Assembly: GCA_025454255.1 (NCBI GenBank)
Contig: JALOOU010000016.1
Span: 1 to 41,397 of the forward strand
Direction of reading: 5' to 3'
DNA from: Desulfobacterales bacterium
GTDB taxonomy: Bacteria > Desulfobacterota > Desulfobacteria > Desulfobacterales > SpSt-501
DNA: 41,397 bases
Position numbers and translations under genes: made by a program. Positions 26,980-39,101 of this stretch are shown in pieces (the stretch's first letter is position 1; every line of letters starts with the position of its first letter). Under the pieces are notes generated by a model. It did not search any database, was not told where the DNA came from, and was given only the letters and a program-made list of their open reading frames with translations.

Positions 26980-27834
26980 ATGAAACCCAGCACGATAGGC
27001 AACGTCATCTGGAACCTGACGCTGATAGCCGCCGGCAGTGCGCTCTGCGCCGTGGCCATCAACGGAATCCTCATTCCGCGCCAGTTCCTGGCGGGCGGCA
27101 TCGGGGGAATGGCCATCTTCATTCACTACATGGCCCCGGCGCTGCCGGTGGGGGTGCTCTATTTTGTATTGAACATCCCTTTGTTCGTGCTGGGCTGGCT
27201 CTACGTGGGCCGGCGGTTTTTTCTCTACAGCCTGGTGGGCATGACCATCTTTTCGCTCGCGGTGCTGGTGCCTTTGCCCACGCTTCCGATTCAGGAGCCC
27301 ATGCTCAACGCGCTGGCCGCCGGCATCATCTCCGGTATCGGCAGCGGCATCATTCTGAAGTCGGTCGGGTCGGCGGGAGGGCTGGACATCCTTTCGGTCA
27401 TCCTGCTCAAGAAGGCATCCATCCGGGTCGGCACCACCGTGATGGGCTTCAACCTCCTGCTGCTGGCGGCGGGATTGTTCCAGTTCAGCGTGGAGATCAT
27501 CCTCTACACCCTGGTCTACATGTTCGTCACCTCCCAGCTGATCAACTTGGTGGTCACGGGGTTGAACCAGCGCAAAATGGTAATGGTGGTGTCCCGCAAG
27601 GCGGAGGAGATCGCCCAGGAGATCATGCAGCAGCTGCAGCGAGGGGTGACCATCGTCAACGGGGAGGGCGGCTTCACGGGCCAGAAGCTGCGCGTGCTCT
27701 ACTCGGTCATCACCTTCCAGGAGCTTTCACGCTTCAAGGAGATGATCCGCAGCCACGACCCCGCGGCGTTCATGGTGGTGACGGAAACCCTCGAGGTGAT
27801 GGGCAAGGGCATCGGCAACCAGCCCCACTGGTGA
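26980..27834 (+). CDS. YitT-family membrane protein (DUF161/DUF2179)
   Basis: Predicted 284 residues. Five or six membrane helices cover residues 10-185 (e.g. LTLIAAGSALCAVAINGILI, LPVGVLYFVLNIPLFVLGWL). The conserved signature GSGIILKSVGSAGGLDILSV follows. The C-terminal soluble DUF2179 domain (MVMVVSRKAEEIAQEIMQQL to the end) resembles a ligand-binding regulatory domain. YitT proteins are probably transporters, but no substrate is established. GAGG lies before the ATG. Confidence 0.92.
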   Translation: MKPSTIGNVIWNLTLIAAGSALCAVAINGILIPRQFLAGGIGGMAIFIHYMAPALPVGVLYFVLNIPLFVLGWLYVGRRFFLYSLVGMTIFSLAVLVPLPTLPIQEPMLNALAAGIISGIGSGIILKSVGSAGGLDILSVILLKKASIRVGTTVMGFNLLLLAAGLFQFSVEIILYTLVYMFVTSQLINLVVTGLNQRKMVMVVSRKAEEIAQEIMQQLQRGVTIVNGEGGFTGQKLRVLYSVITFQELSRFKEMIRSHDPAAFMVVTETLEVMGKGIGNQPHW

Positions 27835-27915: not shown

Positions 27916-30177
27916 TCAGCCGGCGTCTGACAGCATCTTGACGTAGGTGACCTTGCTGTCGCCGGGGGCGTAGAAGTCCTCCAGCACGGAGGCCACGCGA
28001 AAGCCCATGCGCTCGTAGAATATCCGCGTGCTTTCGTAAAGGGGGCGCCCCGAGGTTTCCGCGTATACCATCGCCCCCCCGGCCCTACGGATCAAGCGCT
28101 CGGTCTCAACCAGGATCAGCCGTCCGATCCCCTTGCCCTGGCTTGCGGGCGCCACCACGATCCAATACAGATCGAAGGCGGCTGCCGTCATGGGAATGGG
28201 GCCATAGCAGGCGTAGCCCAGCGTTTGCCCGTTGGCGTCCAAGAAGACAAAATGATACCCGCTGGCGGCCCCTTTGCTGATCCGCTCCGCCACCAACTCC
28301 TCTGCGATGTCGATCTCGGGCCGGCTGAAGAAGCCCGTCGCCTCCACCAGCCGGCGCACCCGTCGGGTGTCCTGGGGCTCCACGTGATGGCGCAGCCGAT
28401 GGGCCGAAGGGGTCGGCCGCGCCGGGCGCCGCTGCGGGGGGGCCGCGCAGTGGGCGGCCGCGAGGCCTTCGAAGAAGGTGCGGGCATGGACCCCCAATGT
28501 GCGCGTGCGGTATCCCCCCTCCTGCACCACCAGCACGGGGATGCCGAGCTCCCCGATCATGCGGCCGTTCAGGTTGAAGTCCTGGCGCGTCAAGGACCAC
28601 GTGCCGGTGGGGTCCCCCTTGGCGGTGTCCAGGCCGAGCGCCACCACCAGAAAATCCGGGTCGAACTCGTCGATGCGCCGCAGGGCGGTGGCCAGGGCCT
28701 TGCGGTAGCGCTCGCCGTCGACCGCTTCCGGCAGGGGCAGGTTCAGGTTGAAACCGGCGCCTTCGCCCGTGCCGATTTCATCCCGGAAACCGGAAAAATA
28801 CGGATAGGCGAAGGAGGGGTCGCCGTGAAGGGAGATGGTCAGCACGTCGGGCCGATCGTAGAAGATGTCCTGCTGGCCGTTGCCGTGGTGGTAGTCGATG
28901 TCCAGAATGGCGACCCGCCCGCTGCGTCGAAGGAAATGAGCGGCGACGGCGGCGTTGTTGAAGTAGCAGAAACCGCCGAAGGCCCGACGCTCGGCATGGT
29001 GCCCCGGCGGCCGCACCAGGGCGTAGGCCATGCGCCGGCCTGAGAGAAGCTCCTGCGCGGCGGTCAGGGTGCAGTTGACGGCCCCCCGTGCAGCGGCATA
29101 GGCGTTGCGGGTGATGGGGGTGAAGGTGTCGATGCAGAAATAGCCGGCGAGCAGGGAGCGTTCCTTGGGCGGGCGGGCCTTGTTGCGCAGCGGGAAGACA
29201 TAGGGGTAGATGGGGTGATCGTCCTGGAGGTCGGCGCAGGAGCGGCGAAAAAAACGGATGAAGTCCACATCGTGGACCCCGGCCAGGATTTTCTCCGGAA
29301 AGGTTGCCGTCGGCAGGATCTCGAACAGCGGGGCCTGCGCGATCAGCGACAGGATGCTGCGCACCCTCACCGGGGCCTCCACATACCCCCGGTCGTGCAC
29401 ATGGTGAATCGCATGCCGATCGTGGAACACCAGTGCGATCTTTTCGCAGGCCTCTGCCGTCACCGCCGCCGTCACCGCGGCCGCTTTTAGATATCGAAAT
29501 TCCCGCAGCCGAACCGGATCCTCCGTGATGGAGCCGACCACCCGCTCCACGTAATCCGCAGGGATGGTCCCGGCGTATTTTCGCTCGAGAATGGTTCGGA
29601 CCACCCCGCGCAGATACTCGCGCCCGGGCCGCGCGGTGCGGTTCAGCCCGTCGCAGACCAGATACGGCATGCAGGTCTGGCCGGGCTTGTAGGCCGTTTC
29701 GTAGGCGGTGCCGACGACCGGCCGGGCGCCGTAGCGTTCGTAGAACCGCAGGCGCGCACGATTCTCTGGCAGAAGGTCCTCCCGCGGGCACAGGGCCGGG
29801 TCGTCCGGCAGGCACTCGAAAAATAGCGCCTTTGCCTCATATGCCGTTGCTTCGTGGCGCACGCGGTCGTAGAGCGCTCCGCCCACCCCGCCGCTGGTCT
29901 TGCCGACCTGGGTGGCGATCCAGTCCAGAAAGCAGAAGCCGATCCGCGGCTCGTGCAGCAGGAAGGCGAACCCCAGCACCCGCCGGCGCCCGTTTTCGGC
30001 CACGAAGAGCGTCGTCTGGAAGCGCTTGAGAAAGGGGTTGCGCAGATGTCGGCCGAGTTGGTCGATTTCCTGCGGCGGGACCGCAGAAAACCGGCTGCGC
30101 ATGATGGCCTTGACCTGCTCGAGCGCGGCCTGGTTTGCCGGCAGCAGGTCGTCATAGATGCGGCGGATGCGGAACAT
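27916..30177 (-). CDS. GNAT - deacetylase (acetylpolyamine amidohydrolase type) - GNAT fusion protein
   Basis: Three-domain cytoplasmic protein of 753 residues. Residues 1-185 form a GNAT-like acetyltransferase with a VGKTSGGVGG acetyl-CoA loop at 91-100. Residues about 240-580 form a class II-type deacetylase: RPPGHHAERRAFGGFCYFNN (389-408) and LDIDYHHGNG (425-434), with zinc ligands D428, H430 and D517 (in GLDTAKGDP), the H393/H394 pair, and VVQEGGY (550-556). All catalytic residues are present. Residues about 595-753 are a second GNAT with the canonical QGKGIG loop at 680-685. The protein could therefore both add and remove acetyl groups. It starts 3 bases after the ATP-grasp gene and ends the kamA operon. 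The nearest deacetylase relatives act on acetylated polyamines and small amines, which fits a beta-lysine substrate. The exact reaction is inferred. Confidence 0.85.
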   Translation of the reverse strand: MFRIRRIYDDLLPANQAALEQVKAIMRSRFSAVPPQEIDQLGRHLRNPFLKRFQTTLFVAENGRRRVLGFAFLLHEPRIGFCFLDWIATQVGKTSGGVGGALYDRVRHEATAYEAKALFFECLPDDPALCPREDLLPENRARLRFYERYGARPVVGTAYETAYKPGQTCMPYLVCDGLNRTARPGREYLRGVVRTILERKYAGTIPADYVERVVGSITEDPVRLREFRYLKAAAVTAAVTAEACEKIALVFHDRHAIHHVHDRGYVEAPVRVRSILSLIAQAPLFEILPTATFPEKILAGVHDVDFIRFFRRSCADLQDDHPIYPYVFPLRNKARPPKERSLLAGYFCIDTFTPITRNAYAAARGAVNCTLTAAQELLSGRRMAYALVRPPGHHAERRAFGGFCYFNNAAVAAHFLRRSGRVAILDIDYHHGNGQQDIFYDRPDVLTISLHGDPSFAYPYFSGFRDEIGTGEGAGFNLNLPLPEAVDGERYRKALATALRRIDEFDPDFLVVALGLDTAKGDPTGTWSLTRQDFNLNGRMIGELGIPVLVVQEGGYRTRTLGVHARTFFEGLAAAHCAAPPQRRPARPTPSAHRLRHHVEPQDTRRVRRLVEATGFFSRPEIDIAEELVAERISKGAASGYHFVFLDANGQTLGYACYGPIPMTAAAFDLYWIVVAPASQGKGIGRLILVETERLIRRAGGAMVYAETSGRPLYESTRIFYERMGFRVASVLEDFYAPGDSKVTYVKMLSDAG

Positions 30178-30180
30178 GAT

Positions 30181-31200
30181 TCATGGGGTCCGGCGGCGGG
30201 CATCGGCGAGAATGCGCTCTACCGCGTGGGCGAAGGGGATGCCGGAGGCCTCCAGGGCGGCGGCGAACCCGGCGTCCGGCGACAGGCACGGGTTGGCGTT
30301 GACCTCCAGGATCCAGGGCCGCCCGCCGGCATCGACCCGGAAGTCGACCCGTGCGTAACCGTTCAGCCCGAATAGGCACCAGCACTGCAGCGCCAGGGTG
30401 CGGAGCTCGGCCAGCAGCCCCGCCGCCTCCGGCGGAAAATCGAACCGGCGCGGGGTGTGGTTGAACTCGAAGGAGCCGGCGTCCCACTTGGCCCGGTAGC
30501 CGACAATCCGGAGCCGGTTTTCGGCGAAGCCCTCGAAAAGGATTTCCGCGGGGGCCAGCACCTGCGGGCCTGCGGGCGAGGCGATCAGGGACAGATTGAA
30601 CTCCCGGCCCTCGATGTAGCGCTCGGCAAAGCAGGCGCCCCCCAGGTGCGCGGCGCGCTGCGGCAATTGGTCGGCGGCGGATTCCGCGCTCTGGCAGAGC
30701 GCCAGGCGATCCTCTTCCAGGCCGATGGATGCATGCTCCCACACCGATTTGACGATCCATGGCCCTTCGGTCGATTCGTCCCGTGCGGTGGCGCCGGGGG
30801 GCGGTGCCGGGCCGCCGCCCGGATAAGGGCCCACCCAGGCCGGCGTCGGCAGGCCCGCCGCTGCCAGACAGTGCTTGGCGAGGATCTTGTGCGAGGAGAG
30901 AAACATGGCCTCCGCGCCGGCGCCGGTGTAGGGCACCGCGAGTGCGTCCAGCAGCGAGGGGACCGCGTGAATCAGGCGCCCCGTGCCGTTTAGGGATTCG
31001 ACGATGTTGAATACCCGGTCGGGCCGCAGCCTCGCCAGCCGGTGTTTGAAATCGCAGAGGTCCAGCGTGCAGGGCAGAAAGGCGGGATCGTGGCCGAGCG
31101 CCTCGAGCGCCGCCCGGATCGCATCGGCCTGGGCCAGCACATCGCGCTCGTCCGGAGCCCCCCCGTCGTCGACGGCGTTGTGGACGATGGCTACCCGCAT
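30181..31200 (-). CDS. ATP-grasp ligase, D-Ala-D-Ala ligase-like (second of pair)
   Basis: Predicted 339 residues; forms an amide bond between a carboxylate and an amine using ATP. The preATP-grasp domain starts MRVAIVHNAVDDGG. The ATP-binding lysine and loop lie in PWIVKSVWEHASIGLEED, the adenine-contact strand in CFAERYIEGREFNLSLIAS, and the Mg-binding Asp/Glu/Asn in ARVDFRVDAGG and WILEVNANPCLSPDAGF. The loop reads HASIGL rather than the EGSSxGV of true D-alanine ligases, so the substrate probably differs. The ATG overlaps the preceding ligase gene by 10 bases, and the fusion gene begins 3 bases after its stop. There is no mur/ddl context, so a peptidoglycan role is unlikely. Confidence 0.88.
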   Translation of the reverse strand: MRVAIVHNAVDDGGAPDERDVLAQADAIRAALEALGHDPAFLPCTLDLCDFKHRLARLRPDRVFNIVESLNGTGRLIHAVPSLLDALAVPYTGAGAEAMFLSSHKILAKHCLAAAGLPTPAWVGPYPGGGPAPPPGATARDESTEGPWIVKSVWEHASIGLEEDRLALCQSAESAADQLPQRAAHLGGACFAERYIEGREFNLSLIASPAGPQVLAPAEILFEGFAENRLRIVGYRAKWDAGSFEFNHTPRRFDFPPEAAGLLAELRTLALQCWCLFGLNGYARVDFRVDAGGRPWILEVNANPCLSPDAGFAAALEASGIPFAHAVERILADARRRTP

Positions 31201-32204
31201 GGGCCGGAAGGCCGTCCGCGCGGGTCGATCCGCTTCTCGGCGGAGGCGAGGATCCGTGCGATCAGCTCATCGAAGCCGATGCCGACCAGGCCGCAGATGA
31301 TGGGCAGATCGGAGTGCTCGGGGTGCAGCCCGGCCAGCGGGTTCACTTCGATGAAATGCGGCCGGCCGCGTCGGTCGCAGCGCAGGTCGAGTCGGCCGGC
31401 GTCCCGGCAGCCGAGAACTCGCCAGGCCTCCAGGGCGATCCGCTCGACCTCGGCCGCCAGCGGGTCGTCGGACGAGCGCACCAGACGGTAGCGCACCAGC
31501 TCCTCGGAGTTTTCCTTGTTGTGGTAGGAGTACACCTGCTGTTCGGCGGCGGCCAGGAGCAATACCTCCATCGTGCCCAGCACCTGTGCCTGTCGGCCGG
31601 TTCCGATCACGGCGGTCGTGAACTCCCGGCCGGGCAGGAACCGCTCCACCAGCACCGGTTGTCGATAGGCGTCGATCAGGGCCCGGCAGGCCTCCGCCAG
31701 GTCCTGACGGCGGCGGACGATGGATTTCGGCGAGACCCCCTTGCCGGTGCCCTCGGCGACGGGTTTGACAAAATAGGGCGGGCCAAAACCGATTTGGGCC
31801 GCCTCCGCGGGGTCTTCCACGACGCCGAAATCGGAGGTCGGGACCCCGGCGTCCCGGATCACCCGCTTGGTCATGCCCTTGTGCAGCGTCAGGCTCATGA
31901 CCAGCGGGTCCGAGAAGGTGTAGGGGATGTCGTAGGCATCGAGGATGGCCGGGACCTGCGCCTCGCGGCCGATTCCGATCATGCCCTCGGCGATGTTGAA
32001 AACCAAATCCCAGCGGCGGCCCGCCGCGAGCCGCTCCACCAGGCTCCAGGCGTTGCCGATCCGCTCGGCCTCGTGGCCCAGGCGGGCGAGCGCGGCGTCG
32101 ATGGCCGCAACGGTCTCCTCGCGGTCGAACTCGGCGGTCTCGTCCTCAGAGTATCCCCGGGCGAGGTACTCGCTGCGCAAATCATAGGTCAGGCCGATCC
32201 GCAT
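31191..32204 (-). CDS. ATP-grasp ligase, D-Ala-D-Ala ligase-like (first of pair)
   Basis: Predicted 337 residues starting MRIGLTYDLRSEYLARGYSE. The preATP-grasp region contains WDLVFNIAEGMIGIGREAQV. ATP-grasp motifs are YFVKPVAEGTGKGVSPKSIV, LVERFLPGREFTTAVIGTG and, for metal binding, GRLDLRCDRRG with FIEVNPLAGLHPEHSDLPI. The loop EGTGKGV is closer to classic D-Ala ligases than that of the second ligase. Two such enzymes in one operon suggest two successive ligations or a heteromeric ligase. It starts 16 bases after kamA and overlaps the next gene by 10 bases. Confidence 0.88.
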   Translation of the reverse strand: MRIGLTYDLRSEYLARGYSEDETAEFDREETVAAIDAALARLGHEAERIGNAWSLVERLAAGRRWDLVFNIAEGMIGIGREAQVPAILDAYDIPYTFSDPLVMSLTLHKGMTKRVIRDAGVPTSDFGVVEDPAEAAQIGFGPPYFVKPVAEGTGKGVSPKSIVRRRQDLAEACRALIDAYRQPVLVERFLPGREFTTAVIGTGRQAQVLGTMEVLLLAAAEQQVYSYHNKENSEELVRYRLVRSSDDPLAAEVERIALEAWRVLGCRDAGRLDLRCDRRGRPHFIEVNPLAGLHPEHSDLPIICGLVGIGFDELIARILASAEKRIDPRGRPSGPCG

Positions 32205-32220
32205 GCAGGCGATCTCCGGT

Positions 32221-33546
32221 TCAGGCCGGTATCACGTCCGGGTAGCGGTATTGCCGGTCGCAGTAGTTGCGCAGCAGCAGCATCTGCCCATCGCGGCCCT
32301 CCACGTAGTTGGGCATCAGCGGGATCTTTCCGCCGCCGCCGGGGGCGTCGATGACATAGGTCGGGACGGCATAGCCGCTGGTAAACCCCCGCAGGCCGCG
32401 GATGATCTCCAGGCCGGTCGCCACCGAGGTGCGGAAGTGGCTCGACCCCGTGATCGGGTCGCACTGGTAGATGTAGTAAGGCCGCACCCGCATGCGCAGC
32501 AGCTTATGGCAGAGCGAGGTCATCGTCTCCACCGTGTCGTTGATCCCCTTGAGCAGCACCGTCTGGGAACCCAGCGGAATGCCCGCGTTGGCCAGGCGCT
32601 CGCAGGCCCGGGTGGCCTCCGGCGTGCACTCGGCCGGGTGCGTGAAATGGAGGCTCATCCACAGGGGGTGATAGCGCCTGAGCACACGCACCAGGTTCGG
32701 GGTGATGCGCTGGGGCAGCACGGCCGGCACCTTGGTGCCGATCCGGAGGATCTCCACGTGCGGGATCTCGCGCAGCTTCGACAGCAGCCACCCGAGGCGC
32801 TCGTCGTTCAGGGTCAGGGGGTCGCCGCCGGAGATGAGCACATCGCGCACCGTGGGGGTGGAGCGGATGTACTCGATGGCGCGCTCCAGGCGCGAGCGGC
32901 TGGGATAGATCGCGCCGTGGCCCACCACGCGCGAGCGGGTGCAATAGCGGCAGTAGGTGGAGCAGAAATCGAGCACCAGCAGAAGGACGCGGTCAGGGTA
33001 GCGGTGCACCAGACCCGGGACCGGACTCATCGAGTCTTCCCCCAGGGGGTCTTCGGCCTCTTCCGGCGTGGTGATGAACTCGGCCGCGGTGGGGACCACC
33101 GTCCGGCGCAGGGGGTCCGCCGGGTCCTCTTTGGAGAGCAGGCTCATGAAATAGGGCGTGATGCCGACCGGCAGCCGCGACTGGGTTCGGTCGACCGCCG
33201 CGCGCTCGGGGTCCGAGAGCCTCAGCATGCGCTCGAGCTGCTCCATGTGGCGGATCCTGTGGCGGATCTGCCACTGCCAATCATTCCATTCTTTATCCGT
33301 GACCGATGGGAAAAATGCCCGGCGGAAGGCGGTCGCCCTGGGATTCGACACGGGGCGCGACCGGGATGCCGGAAATAGCGATATTTTACCTCTTAGGCGC
33401 GGCGCGATGTCCTGTAAGGGGACAACATCTTGGAGACGGGCTGTAGAACCGGGAGGTTCGTCCTCGTTTTCACCTGCCAGCTCTCCGCCTGACCCCGGCA
33501 CGGACGGGCCAACAGGTTGGTGAAAACTTGCCGCATCGGGTTTCAT
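32221..33546 (-). CDS. kamA: Lysine 2,3-aminomutase (radical SAM, PLP)
   Basis: Converts L-lysine to L-beta-lysine using S-adenosylmethionine, a [4Fe-4S] cluster and pyridoxal phosphate. Protein of 441 residues. Cluster cysteines are C195, C199 and C202 in CSTYCRYCTRSR; the PLP lysine is K407 in APGGGGKIPLMPNY. D363 (in YQCDPITG) and D400 (in YVIDAPGG) correspond to the lysine-binding Asp293 and Asp330 of the clostridial enzyme as I recall its numbering, and the distances from the first cysteine (168 and 205 residues) are identical. Glutamate 2,3-aminomutases replace these aspartates, so lysine is the predicted substrate. About 70 extra N-terminal residues, low in complexity, precede the usual start, and the AAAGGAG is 13 bases from the ATG, so the true start could be internal. 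It leads a four-gene operon. Confidence 0.94.
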   Translation of the reverse strand: MKPDAASFHQPVGPSVPGSGGELAGENEDEPPGSTARLQDVVPLQDIAPRLRGKISLFPASRSRPVSNPRATAFRRAFFPSVTDKEWNDWQWQIRHRIRHMEQLERMLRLSDPERAAVDRTQSRLPVGITPYFMSLLSKEDPADPLRRTVVPTAAEFITTPEEAEDPLGEDSMSPVPGLVHRYPDRVLLLVLDFCSTYCRYCTRSRVVGHGAIYPSRSRLERAIEYIRSTPTVRDVLISGGDPLTLNDERLGWLLSKLREIPHVEILRIGTKVPAVLPQRITPNLVRVLRRYHPLWMSLHFTHPAECTPEATRACERLANAGIPLGSQTVLLKGINDTVETMTSLCHKLLRMRVRPYYIYQCDPITGSSHFRTSVATGLEIIRGLRGFTSGYAVPTYVIDAPGGGGKIPLMPNYVEGRDGQMLLLRNYCDRQYRYPDVIPA

Positions 33547-33882
33547 TGGGCTTTTAAGGCTCCTTTCCGCGGGCGATTGGCGCCCCTCTTGTATTCGTTC
33601 GAGTTTCGGGGTATTGTGTTGTTATCCGTTAAACCGGAGCGAAAAAGCCTTTTCGGACGGTTGATCCGCCTGACAGCCGACCGCATCGCCGTCGATCGGA
33701 TGGTTTGATGCCTCCAACCCCCTGATATGGTGGATCGAGCGCGACCTTAATACAAAATAATGGGCATGTCAATATCAATATTTGCCCTCCCCCAACCGCT
33801 TTTTCAGCACTTCAGTCGGATTATACAACATTGTTCTTCAGCTTTCAATTTCAAACTTGTTTTTCCACAAAGGAGGCAGGCG
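33547..33882. other. Divergent intergenic region between kamA and CBM48 gene
   Basis: 336 bases containing the promoters of both flanking genes. The half next to the CBM48 gene (33740-33860) is AT-rich. No clear -35/-10 pair, operator or small gene could be supported; a 63-codon frame at 33517-33708 overlaps the kamA start and looks spurious. Confidence 0.45.
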
Positions 33883-34200
33883 ATGGCTCGCATCCCCAAA
33901 AGACCGAAAAAAAAGGCTCCGCCGCGGCGCAGGATCGAATTCGTCCTGGAAAGCCCCCAGGCCCAGCAGGTGATCCTGATGGGTGATTTCAATCACTGGG
34001 ACCCCAAGGTTCATCCCATGAAAAGGGACAAGAACGGGGTCTGGCGCAAACTGGTCATGATCCCTCCCGGTCGCTACGAATATCGGTTTTGGGTGGACGG
34101 CGAATGGGTGAACGACCCCTTCAACACCCAGCGCTGCCTGAACTGCTTCGGAAGCGAAAACAACATCATCGACGTCGTTGCGCAAAAGCCGCCGGCATGA
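33883..34200 (+). CDS. Small CBM48/AMPK-beta-type glycogen-binding domain protein
   Basis: Predicted 105 residues, start after a strong AAGGAGG. A basic N-terminal tail (RIPKRPKKKAPPRRR) precedes one isoamylase-N/CBM48 domain: VILMGDFNHWDPKVHPM, the aromatic strand GRYEYRFWVDGEWVNDP, and NNIIDV at the end. This is the carbohydrate-binding fold of branching enzyme and AMPK-beta, here without a catalytic partner. Such stand-alone proteins are common in anaerobes but their role is unknown. The Lys/Arg tail could bind nucleic acid or membranes. Confidence 0.85.
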   Translation: MARIPKRPKKKAPPRRRIEFVLESPQAQQVILMGDFNHWDPKVHPMKRDKNGVWRKLVMIPPGRYEYRFWVDGEWVNDPFNTQRCLNCFGSENNIIDVVAQKPPA

Positions 34201-36351: not shown

Positions 36352-39048
36352 TTACAAGACGCGGTCCTGAGCTTGCGGCGCGCACTCGACGATGGCTTCG
36401 CATAGCGCGCGCAGCGTCAGCGTCGCTTCACCGCTCGCGGAAGTCGGCGCGTCCTCAGCCGCAATGCTAAGAAACACTTCCCGGTCGCACAGTCGGTCAA
36501 CATTGCGCTTACACCGCGACCCATGCGGATAGTCGCCATCGAGCACCGCCTTGGCCAGCCGCGCGGCGAGGCTGCGCAACGCTGCTTGTCTCTGATTCCT
36601 GTCCTTGATCTCGAGCGCGATCGAAAACAGCGTGTCCAGATCCCGACCTGAGCGGGCGCGATAATCGACATAGATGGCGCGGTATTCGTCTTCGACCTCT
36701 TCCGGGGGGCTCCACGCGTAGAGCTGCGCGGTCGCATCCCTGAACAAGGACTCCGCCCCCTTCTCGTCGCCAGCCCGATCCATCGCCGCGGCAACGGCAC
36801 ACAACGCGTAGGCGCGGTCGTCGGGGTCATGGACGTCCCAAGCGGCGTTACACGCCATGGAGAACGCTTCGTTGGCTAGTGCCTCGTCTCCGATCTTCGC
36901 GAGGGCATAGGCGACTTCACTTATGGAGATAGCTTTGGACCAAGCGAAATTGCTCGACTGCGCCATGGCCAGGGCCCTTCGCGCAATGTCTTTGGCGCGC
37001 TCGTGATCCAGAATGGTTGCGATGTCGAGCACGATCGTGCTCAGTGTTTCAGATTTCTCTTGTATGTTCTCGATCGACGCGGCCTCGTCGAAGGCCCGAT
37101 GAACGACGCTCCTGGCTTCTTCCACGTAACCCACCTGGAAGAGGAACGCAGCAGTTGCGCTGAGGGCGCCGGCCTTTTCGCTGGGAGACCGGATCACCGA
37201 CGCCGACTCGAGCATCCGATCGATGATCTTCCGCGTGTCCGCCGGCGCGCCGCATTCCTGGATACATGCGGCAATGAAGCGCACCACATCGGCACCTGGA
37301 TCCTGAGAAGACAGGATTTGCTCGATGAGATAGCACCGCATGAAGTCGGCCCAGTTGAGCGGCGTCTCCCGTGCTGCAGACGCCATAGCGGTGGCGAGAT
37401 CCTTCCCAAAGGACACGAGTGAGCCGAAACGTTCCCACTTCGCCACGGCGACACGGCCAGTCACCAGCTCGTACAGTCGCACGCGGTAGCCGGCGTCGGA
37501 TTGCAGCGCCGAAAGATGGCTGGCGAGGTGCATCAGACCGTACGTGTCCACCTCGTTCCAGTCGACACTGCGCCAGTGATCTTTCGATGCGCCGTAGTGG
37601 AACACGATCTGCTCGTGCAAGAGCCTCGCGTCTTGGTACAGCGCCGCGGTTTTCGGGTCGGGGTTGTCTCGGGTTTTGTCGGCTGTGAGGAACTCCGCAA
37701 CCGTGGCGTGGTAGAGTCGGTAGCGGCTGGTCCGCAAATCCAGGAACTGCAGCAACCGGTCGAGCGCGTCGCTTACCCAGACTCGCTCGGCCCGGATTCC
37801 GCCTAGCCGCATAAGCAGTTCCAGGTCGAGGGGTTCCATCGCCACCGCCAGTACGCCAAGGATCGGGTGGTACACGGCCGGCCACACGGCCTTGTCGTAG
37901 GTCTCCCCGGTCTCCGGGTCTTTGAGTTCGATCCGTTCGCGTCCCACTGACGCCTTGATCTGGCGCAGAAAGAAGTCGTATAGACCGTCCAGGTCTGCGG
38001 GCAGCTCCTTCACGCTCAGGAGCGCGTCGAGTGTCTTCGCGTTCTTTTGGGCCAGGGCCCGGTCGATGCCGCGCGCCAGTGCATCGACGTAGCCGAGGTT
38101 GCCATGCGCCTTGTCGGTGGCCTTCTCGACGAACGCCGGGGCACCGCCCTGCGCCTGCCGCAGCGCCCGCGTGATCGCCGGCTCCCCGGCCAGCCTGGCG
38201 ACGAACGTGGATACGTCCTGCTTAACGCTCTTGTCGTCCTCGGCGATCGCAAGCTCGGCGAGCCGCTCGGCCTGCTTGGTGCGGAAGAGATCGAGTGCCT
38301 CATCCGGCGGGCGCGAGCTGAGCACGAACCGGACGTTCTCCGGTAGCTCCGGGCAGTTGGTGAGCCAGGCGAGGACGTTCTCCGTAACGGCCTGGAAGCG
38401 GATCTCGTCGAGTGCGTCGATGAGAATGACGATCCTTTGGGATGGGTCTGAACGTTGCAGCGCCTGTGCTGGCGTGATCAGCGCGAGAAGAAAGAGATCG
38501 GCAGCTTTCATCAAACTCGGCTCTCGCACGAGTTCGTCCACTTGCAAGCCGACCACCTTTCCCTGAGTGGACCGAACGTGTTGCACAACCGTCAGCAGTT
38601 TCTGCCGGAACGGCGAATCGAGAAGGCGTTTAACGGCCACTCCGACAGCCTCGCCGTGCTCGGCGACGGTGTCGAAGTGCTGTTCGACCGCCACGGAGAG
38701 ACGGCCTTGATCGTCCCCAAACAGTTCCGGGCGCCGCGCGGCGAGCTGATAGCCAATGCGCAGCAGCAGGGACTTGTCCGAGACATCTGCCAGCACCGCG
38801 CGCTGGTCGCGGCGGATGAAGTAGCGCAGCCACTCGGGGTGCTGGTGCGCCAGCTGCGCCAGGAACGCGCTCTTGCCAGCGCCGGGCTCGGCAGTGAGCA
38901 AGACAAACCGCTTGCCGGGTTCGTCCAGCTTCGCGTCCAATGCCTTCGCCAGCCAGTCCCGCCGCACGAACCGCGGGTTCTTGACGTGGCCACAAACGAG
39001 GGAGTCGAAGAAGAGATCTTCGGACTCGGGCAAGACCAATGCGACCAT
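36352..39048 (-). CDS. NACHT/STAND-type ATPase with C-terminal helical repeats
   Basis: Predicted 898 residues. The ATG at 39048 has AAAGGAG 6 bases upstream; an in-frame GTG lies within that site and is unlikely. N-terminal residues 1-45 form a short adaptor segment. The NTPase has Walker A AEPGAGKS (53-60), Walker B IVILIDALDEI (206-216) and a sensor-like VRFVLSSRPPDEAL. A winged-helix/helical region follows (about 400-520), and from about 620 to the end come TPR-like helical repeats (e.g. EKAGALSATAAFLFQVGY, AISISEVAYALAKIG). This is the layout of STAND regulators and of many defence ATPases, in which repeats sense a signal and the NTPase oligomerises. It lies 53 bases downstream of the cyclase/small-protein pair on the same strand. 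Effector domain not recognised. Function unknown. Confidence 0.85.
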   Translation of the reverse strand: MVALVLPESEDLFFDSLVCGHVKNPRFVRRDWLAKALDAKLDEPGKRFVLLTAEPGAGKSAFLAQLAHQHPEWLRYFIRRDQRAVLADVSDKSLLLRIGYQLAARRPELFGDDQGRLSVAVEQHFDTVAEHGEAVGVAVKRLLDSPFRQKLLTVVQHVRSTQGKVVGLQVDELVREPSLMKAADLFLLALITPAQALQRSDPSQRIVILIDALDEIRFQAVTENVLAWLTNCPELPENVRFVLSSRPPDEALDLFRTKQAERLAELAIAEDDKSVKQDVSTFVARLAGEPAITRALRQAQGGAPAFVEKATDKAHGNLGYVDALARGIDRALAQKNAKTLDALLSVKELPADLDGLYDFFLRQIKASVGRERIELKDPETGETYDKAVWPAVYHPILGVLAVAMEPLDLELLMRLGGIRAERVWVSDALDRLLQFLDLRTSRYRLYHATVAEFLTADKTRDNPDPKTAALYQDARLLHEQIVFHYGASKDHWRSVDWNEVDTYGLMHLASHLSALQSDAGYRVRLYELVTGRVAVAKWERFGSLVSFGKDLATAMASAARETPLNWADFMRCYLIEQILSSQDPGADVVRFIAACIQECGAPADTRKIIDRMLESASVIRSPSEKAGALSATAAFLFQVGYVEEARSVVHRAFDEAASIENIQEKSETLSTIVLDIATILDHERAKDIARRALAMAQSSNFAWSKAISISEVAYALAKIGDEALANEAFSMACNAAWDVHDPDDRAYALCAVAAAMDRAGDEKGAESLFRDATAQLYAWSPPEEVEDEYRAIYVDYRARSGRDLDTLFSIALEIKDRNQRQAALRSLAARLAKAVLDGDYPHGSRCKRNVDRLCDREVFLSIAAEDAPTSASGEATLTLRALCEAIVECAPQAQDRVL

Positions 39049-39101
39049 TCCGGCTCCTTTCACTGCCGCGTTGGACCCCGCAACTCGTGGCTAACTCGCA
39101 G

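Follow-up and report, generated by a model that had tools for sequence, protein, structure and literature searches.

A conserved aminomutase, ATP-grasp ligase and acetyltransferase gene set of anaerobic bacteria as a candidate pathway to N-acetylated beta-lysine amides

A stretch of 41,397 nucleotides from a Desulfobacterales bacterium (GenBank assembly GCA_025454255.1, contig JALOOU010000016.1, forward strand; hereafter the window) was analysed, in which four genes encoding a KamA-family aminomutase (KAM), two ATP-grasp ligases resembling D-alanine--D-alanine ligases (AGA and AGB) and a GNAT-deacetylase-GNAT fusion protein lie tightly packed on the minus strand (33546-27916) with spacings of 16, -10 and 3 bases. 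The gene set is strongly supported as a functional unit, and its core consists of KAM, AGB and the C-terminal acetyltransferase domain of the fusion protein (GNATc), usually together with AGA. Sequence comparisons make it likely that the operon is a dedicated pathway to an N-acetylated beta-lysine-containing amide or short peptide, although substrates, reaction order and product are all putative. The operon probably makes a small molecule, and it is found in many anaerobic bacteria of several phyla. About one third of the genomes sampled from the window's class (62/192) and members of other phyla carry the pathway, for which no assigned product was found; general family models would label its genes as D-Ala ligase, lysine 2,3-aminomutase and histone deacetylase and thereby hide it.

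Conservation and linkage of the gene set

For the class sample, 192 genomes drawn from the window's class were searched with AGA, using thresholds of at least 330 bits for AGA, above 250 bits for AGB and at least 465 bits for KAM, which were set by hand after viewing the lists. AGA was present in 62 genomes, AGB in 71 and both in 61; KAM was present in 68, 66 of which also held AGB. Co-occurrence was highly significant for AGA with AGB and for KAM with AGB (Fisher p < 1e-37 each, uncorrected for relatedness). In the sole AGA genome without AGB (G171), the AGA gene sits where its contig ends (L100); G179 is the other KAM genome that lacks AGB, and there the contig stops shortly past KAM (L339).

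Gene neighbourhoods were compared in two overlapping sets, comprising 62 loci from 61 other class genomes and 80 titled loci, the latter being the best 80 of at least 571 relatives; dropping 17 identical AGA sequences left 126 non-duplicate loci. Within 6.5 kb of AGA on the same strand, KAM was found in 56/62 class loci and 78/80 titled loci, AGB in 60/62 and 74/80, GNATc in 52/62 and 60/80, and the deacetylase in only 28/62 and 33/80. When only loci with sufficient flanking sequence to either side of AGA are counted, the figures become 45/45 and 56/57 (KAM), 45/45 and 54/57 (AGB), and 42/45 and 49/57 (GNATc). Where a partner was missing near AGA, whole-genome searches recovered AGB in 10/10 genomes (four with none near AGA), KAM in 11/11 (seven with none near AGA) and GNATc or the fusion in 8/10 (seven found among the nine with none near AGA). 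Mirror-tree values, uncorrected for host relatedness and with no value for KAM, were 0.66 for AGA-AGB, 0.62 for AGA-GNATc and 0.79 for AGB-GNATc.

One-frame fusions were counted across the 126 loci, some of whose reading frames are cut or broken: the arrangement of the window, with an N-terminal GNAT domain (GNATn), the deacetylase and GNATc, occurs in 38, AGB-GNATc in 18, deacetylase-GNATc in three and KAM-AGA in two, and GNATn-deacetylase lacks GNATc in frame in 11. Fusion links two pairs in this way, KAM with AGA and AGB with GNATc.

The titled loci include Desulfobacterales, Planctomycetota, Acidobacteria, Syntrophaceae and bacterium UASB270, and the record titles name saline and fresh waters alike; the labels of three metagenome-assembled genomes may reflect mis-binning (Patescibacteria L131 and Melioribacter L188, each with a contig of about 3.5 kb, and Krumholzibacteriia L150, 12 kb). 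Some of the loci come from cultured, named hosts (Desulfatitalea alkaliphila L132, Desulfosarcina cetonica L154 and Desulfocarbo indianensis L190), and therefore the product can be sought directly. One further genome set gave matches in 33/199 at E 1e-60, 16 of these above 440 bits, and another in 31/148, all but one at 205-276 bits, a divergent group. The packing of the four genes and their joint action had been put forward in the original prediction, which was made from the window alone; the positions and spacings were confirmed, the neighbourhood was found to be kept beyond close relatives, and joint action is borne out by the conserved operon, the genome-level co-occurrence and the natural fusions.

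Residues and domains of the encoded enzymes

KAM aligned with lysine 2,3-aminomutase (LAM; 2a5h) without gaps over 354 residues. The window KAM has Cys 195/199/202 of the radical S-adenosylmethionine cluster, the pyridoxal phosphate lysine (Lys407), and D363 and D400, equivalent to LAM D293 and D330, which bind the side-chain amine of lysine. Residues aligned with LAM C125, C129, C132, R134, D293, D330 and K337 are kept in 113/113 distinct operon KAMs passing filters (KAMs below 380 bits or 330 residues were dropped), such that the CxxxCxxC motif, the cofactor lysine and the lysine-binding aspartates of lysine 2,3-aminomutases are present throughout; one of six divergent KAMs has Gln at the D293 position. 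Because the residues at D293 and D330 are kept, L-lysine is the likeliest substrate, and these residues together with the family assignment suggest conversion to beta-lysine. KAM is one among 38 matches in a radical SAM survey of its own genome.

AGA and AGB share 33% identity and, among ATP-grasp enzymes, are both closest to D-Ala-D-Ala ligases, with ATP- and Mg-binding residues kept with few exceptions in 150 AGA and 147 AGB sequences (residue alignments A1-A5 are hand-picked subsets of these families). Both thus retain the catalytic ATP-grasp residues, in agreement with the expectation of two ligases of this type. The best D-Ala ligase model gave 159.9 bits for AGA and 105.3 bits for AGB, below its curated cut-off of 243. 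AGA S298 (147/150) aligns with the Ddl serine that binds the acceptor, and the adjoining D299 is found in 150/150; the acceptor loop of AGB differs (NPC-SPDAG), with D309 in 138/147. AGA D299 and AGB D309 give hints, and no more than hints, of amine-bearing substrates.

In the fusion protein the deacetylase is central, with one GNAT at either end. GNATn went unseen by Pfam in the window protein, but it is supported by the orthologue in L161, and the top structural matches of its predicted model are GNATs, placing it in the GNAT fold. The model of the whole fusion has a mean predicted local distance difference test score (pLDDT) of 79.1 and a predicted template modelling score (pTM) of 0.66, with weak stretches, and its structural matches cover almost exclusively the deacetylase part. 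The deacetylase belongs with the acetylpolyamine amidohydrolases (31-37% identity across the structural alignment), having the fold and the PPGHH, DxDYHHGNG, LGLD and EGGY active-site motifs of the acetylpolyamine amidohydrolase/HDAC family. GNATc is closely related to PDB 2r7h (Desulfovibrio DDE_3044), at 48% identity and with a root-mean-square deviation of about 1 Å for the model. GNATc is the conserved acetyltransferase, and GNATn with the deacetylase is an accessory module; the idea that the acetylating and deacetylating fusion as a whole belongs to the set thus holds for GNATc, the deacetylase being present in the minority of loci counted above.

Proposed pathway and alternatives

In the proposed pathway KAM would convert L-lysine to beta-lysine, and AGA and AGB would form amide bonds after activating a carboxylate as an acyl phosphate. 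In view of the two KAM-AGA fusions, AGA probably works directly on beta-lysine; the 18 AGB-GNATc fusions suggest that this second pair would carry out a further amide formation and cap the product, GNATc transferring acetyl onto one of its amines. In some hosts the optional GNATn-deacetylase module may acetylate and deacetylate an amine, most simply adjusting or recycling the acetylated compound. Since no transporter is regularly linked, the product probably stays inside the cell, and a role as compatible solute is, tentatively, the likeliest single use. An ablB gene is present in 4/62 operon genomes and 14/130 others (p=0.43) and is therefore neither exclusive of the operon nor linked to it. 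The product may be a new osmolyte or other metabolite of sulfate reducers and Planctomycetota. Evenly poised is the broader proposal of a widespread class of anaerobe metabolites, N-acetylated beta-lysine oligoamides assembled by KamA, a GNAT and two ATP-grasp ligases, of which one would be constant and the other exchangeable, some lineages having a built-in acetylation/deacetylation switch.

Several observations weigh against this pathway. KAM scores 494.6 bits against a cut-off of 525.4 for TIGR03820 (lysine 2,3-aminomutase/AblA), although this is its best model. The co-occurrence tests ignore the kinship of the genomes, and whole-genome searches of G121 and G548 did not recover GNATc. Five genomes (G002, G032, G059, G086 and G143; L330-L334) carry a KAM-AGB-GNATc operon without AGA, which is thus not obligatory. 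Of four loci fetched for the phylum to which a Melioribacter-labelled genome belongs, only two have all four genes. Splitting of the set is frequent in the phylum represented by a Rhodopirellula-labelled genome, where the nine strong AGA loci fetched have KAM locally in five, AGB in six and GNATc in four; both phyla are known solely from the centre genome's label. Transport is mildly suggested by an MFS (major facilitator superfamily) gene within the operon of L094 and by YitT genes adjoining a few operons.

Four of the five AGA-less genomes carry a remoter AGA-like ligase at another site, with best E values of 1e-34 to 1e-46, whereas the best in G002 is 1e-19. In G009, G011, G017, G054 and G096 the place of AGA is taken by a double ATP-grasp protein (about 675-750 residues); AGB lies beside GNATc in the four fetched loci of this family (L335-L338), and KAM is found elsewhere in 4/5 of the genomes. 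From the AGA-less operons and the double-ATP-grasp family, AGB and GNATc appear to be the constant parts and AGA an exchangeable one, so that a pathway with two ligases is the usual form and AGA can be missing from an otherwise complete operon. The two complete loci from the Melioribacter-labelled genome's phylum have the order AGA-AGB-GNATc-KAM (L251, L252); the reordered or split loci of other phyla therefore indicate that the same genes are retained although their order and linkage differ. Double ATP-grasp proteins were also seen in L102-L105 and in G009 (L101), whose genomes have AGB elsewhere and mostly KAM. Of the distant AGA-like proteins viewed (L101-L118), L113, L114 and L117 were set aside because their context differs: there an AGA-like ATP-grasp protein of 586-717 aa is followed by gamma-glutamyltranspeptidase-like and N-formylglutamate amidohydrolase-like genes, as judged by eye, which is possibly a further conserved operon.

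The sub-threshold score of KAM bears on the alternative that it acts on another amino acid or lysine derivative and that the product holds a different beta-amino acid. The position of C268, which with a C-terminal cluster supplies the inter-subunit zinc cysteines of LAM, is Cys in 4/113 operon KAMs vs 7/7 AblA (Thr in the window KAM); the operon KAMs have a short C-terminal tail, and the window KAM lacks the AblA zinc cysteines. In a tree of 51 KAMs, including 31 of the 113 operon KAMs (30 random and that of the window), the operon group has support of 100/99 with AblA outside it, and 6/7 unlinked KAMs fall inside. However, both lysine-binding aspartates are invariant in the operon KAMs, and the glutamate and arginine aminomutase models score lower than the lysine model (434.1 and 391.5 bits), so a different substrate is unlikely. 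The prediction that KamA gives beta-lysine therefore stands as to the lysine-type active site, with the reaction itself plausible from sequence and the TIGR03820 cut-off not reached.

Export of the product, as a bioactive peptide, signal or metal-binding compound in place of an internal solute, would fit the presence of ATP-grasp ligases, GNATs and a modified amino acid, which are usual in such pathways, as well as the MFS gene and the YitT genes. The latter adjoin the operon in the window, L119, L039, L041 and L334 and stand between AGB and GNATc in L255; in the window the YitT gene is convergent with the fusion gene at 81 bases, an adjacency found in only a few relatives. However, no membrane-protein cluster occurs in more than 5 of 63 loci among the first 40 flank clusters, viewed by eye, and hence no transporter is regularly linked; the genes also stay together in the genome even when unlinked. 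Export is therefore regarded as rather unlikely.

Lysine degradation or another unrelated role is extremely improbable: clostridial lysine fermentation does begin with KamA, but the operon contains ligases and no recurrent degradation genes were noticed in the flanks, where beta-lysine mutase was not specifically searched for.

Neighbouring genes and relation to known systems

The coordinates of the operon, its domains and selected neighbours are collected in Table 1. Among the first 40 flank clusters no regular fifth partner was found except a CxxCxxCC (YkgJ-like) gene, which lies between KAM and AGA in many loci, though not in the window, and within 3 kb of AGA in 10/62 and 14/80 loci of the partly overlapping sets. 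Rfam over the whole window gave zero matches at gathering scores and thus no known riboswitch. The window also encodes a 903-aa protein with weak NACHT/AAA-type NTPase matches (36352-39063, minus strand) and, divergent from the operon, a small glycogen-binding AMPK1_CBM/CBM48-domain protein (33760-34200, plus strand), beyond which lie a PhoU-like gene and a PHO4 phosphate transporter gene. Searched with PADLOC, neither this NACHT-like protein nor any of the four operon proteins gave a match.

Table 1. Features of the operon and neighbouring genes (window coordinates unless a locus is named)
Feature	Position	Strand	Basis
KAM, KamA-family radical SAM/PLP aminomutase, 441 aa	32221..33546	-	family and solved-structure searches
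AGA, D-Ala-ligase-like ATP-grasp ligase, 337 aa	31191..32204	-	family and structure searches
AGB, second D-Ala-ligase-like ATP-grasp ligase, 339 aa	30181..31200	-	family and structure searches
Fusion protein GNATn - acetylpolyamine-amidohydrolase-type deacetylase - GNATc, 753 aa	27916..30177	-	
GNATn domain, residues 1-245, accessory N-acetyltransferase	29443..30177	-	orthologue and domain model
Middle part of the fusion protein	28468..29382	-	
GNATc domain, residues 585-750, conserved acetyltransferase of the gene set	27928..28425	-	homologue of solved 2r7h
YitT-family (PF02588+DUF2179) membrane protein, possible transporter	26980..27834	+	
YkgJ-like CxxCxxCC gene, examples	L121 6439-7023; L142 6312-7004; L161 6457-7035		

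No paper on this gene set was found by title and abstract opening; a survey of amidoligase gene neighbourhoods, reportedly by Iyer and co-workers (2009, Mol. BioSyst.), was unchecked and may already list the context. By sequence the locus appears to be neither an N-acetylglutaminylglutamine amide (NAGGN) locus nor one for EF-P beta-lysylation. The NAGGN synthetase TIGR03103 joins GNAT and ATP-grasp parts, and an ATP-grasp protein is likewise joined to a GNAT here (AGB-GNATc, 18 loci); however, the operon has an aminomutase, and TIGR03103 was absent at E 0.001 for the window proteins and, for AGA, among the matches listed (25 of 37). Decoration of a macromolecule (protein, tRNA or cell wall) with beta-lysine, in the manner of EF-P, is very unlikely: ATP-grasp ligases also modify proteins and beta-lysine is known on EF-P, but the EpmB model TIGR03821 gave 255.7 bits on KAM vs a cut-off of 369.3, the ligases are closest to D-Ala ligases and the deacetylase is closest to acetylpolyamine enzymes.

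The ablA/ablB pathway to N-epsilon-acetyl-beta-lysine is described in methanogens (PMC1224877) and proposed in Pelobacter carbinolicus (PMC3543383). The operon resembles it in having a KamA-type aminomutase with lysine-type residues, followed by acetylation, but adds two ATP-grasp ligases and an acetyltransferase that is not AblB, and its KAM is without the zinc cysteines and stands apart in the tree. The operon proteins have no match to AblB (TIGR03827) at E 0.001, and the best match in their own genome scores 23.2 vs 205.1 bits; with no AblB in the operon nor, above cut-off, in its genome, the locus is not ablA/ablB. The original prediction's distinction from both ablA/ablB and NAGGN loci accordingly withstood the model searches, KAM not reaching the AblA cut-off. 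Synthesis of N-acetyl-beta-lysine only, with a separate task for the ligases, would need no more than KamA and a GNAT, the minimal recipe, yet it is highly improbable, as AGB is closely tied to KAM in its occurrence across genomes and shares one frame with GNATc in 18 loci, the fusion protein is without an AblB match, and four operon genomes also hold ablB above cut-off.

The proposed amide pathway has further counterparts among characterised enzymes. AGA and AGB share the fold family and the ATP/Mg residues of D-alanine--D-alanine ligases, but fall below every listed curated cut-off and have altered acceptor loops and the fixed partners KamA and GNAT. The deacetylase shares active-site motifs and 31-37% identity with acetylpolyamine amidohydrolases, but is fused to GNATs in a putative beta-lysine operon, and PDB 2r7h, the 'putative D-alanine N-acetyltransferase', is a stand-alone chain of 177 residues whose name is itself putative. 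Beta-lysine is also joined into amides and oligopeptides in streptothricin/nourseothricin, as is proposed for the operon; there, assembly uses the adenylation and carrier domains of nonribosomal peptide synthetases (PMC8359417), whereas the operon has ATP-grasp ligases. By analogy, the operon would operate as a small pathway of ATP-grasp peptide ligases supplied with a beta-amino acid.

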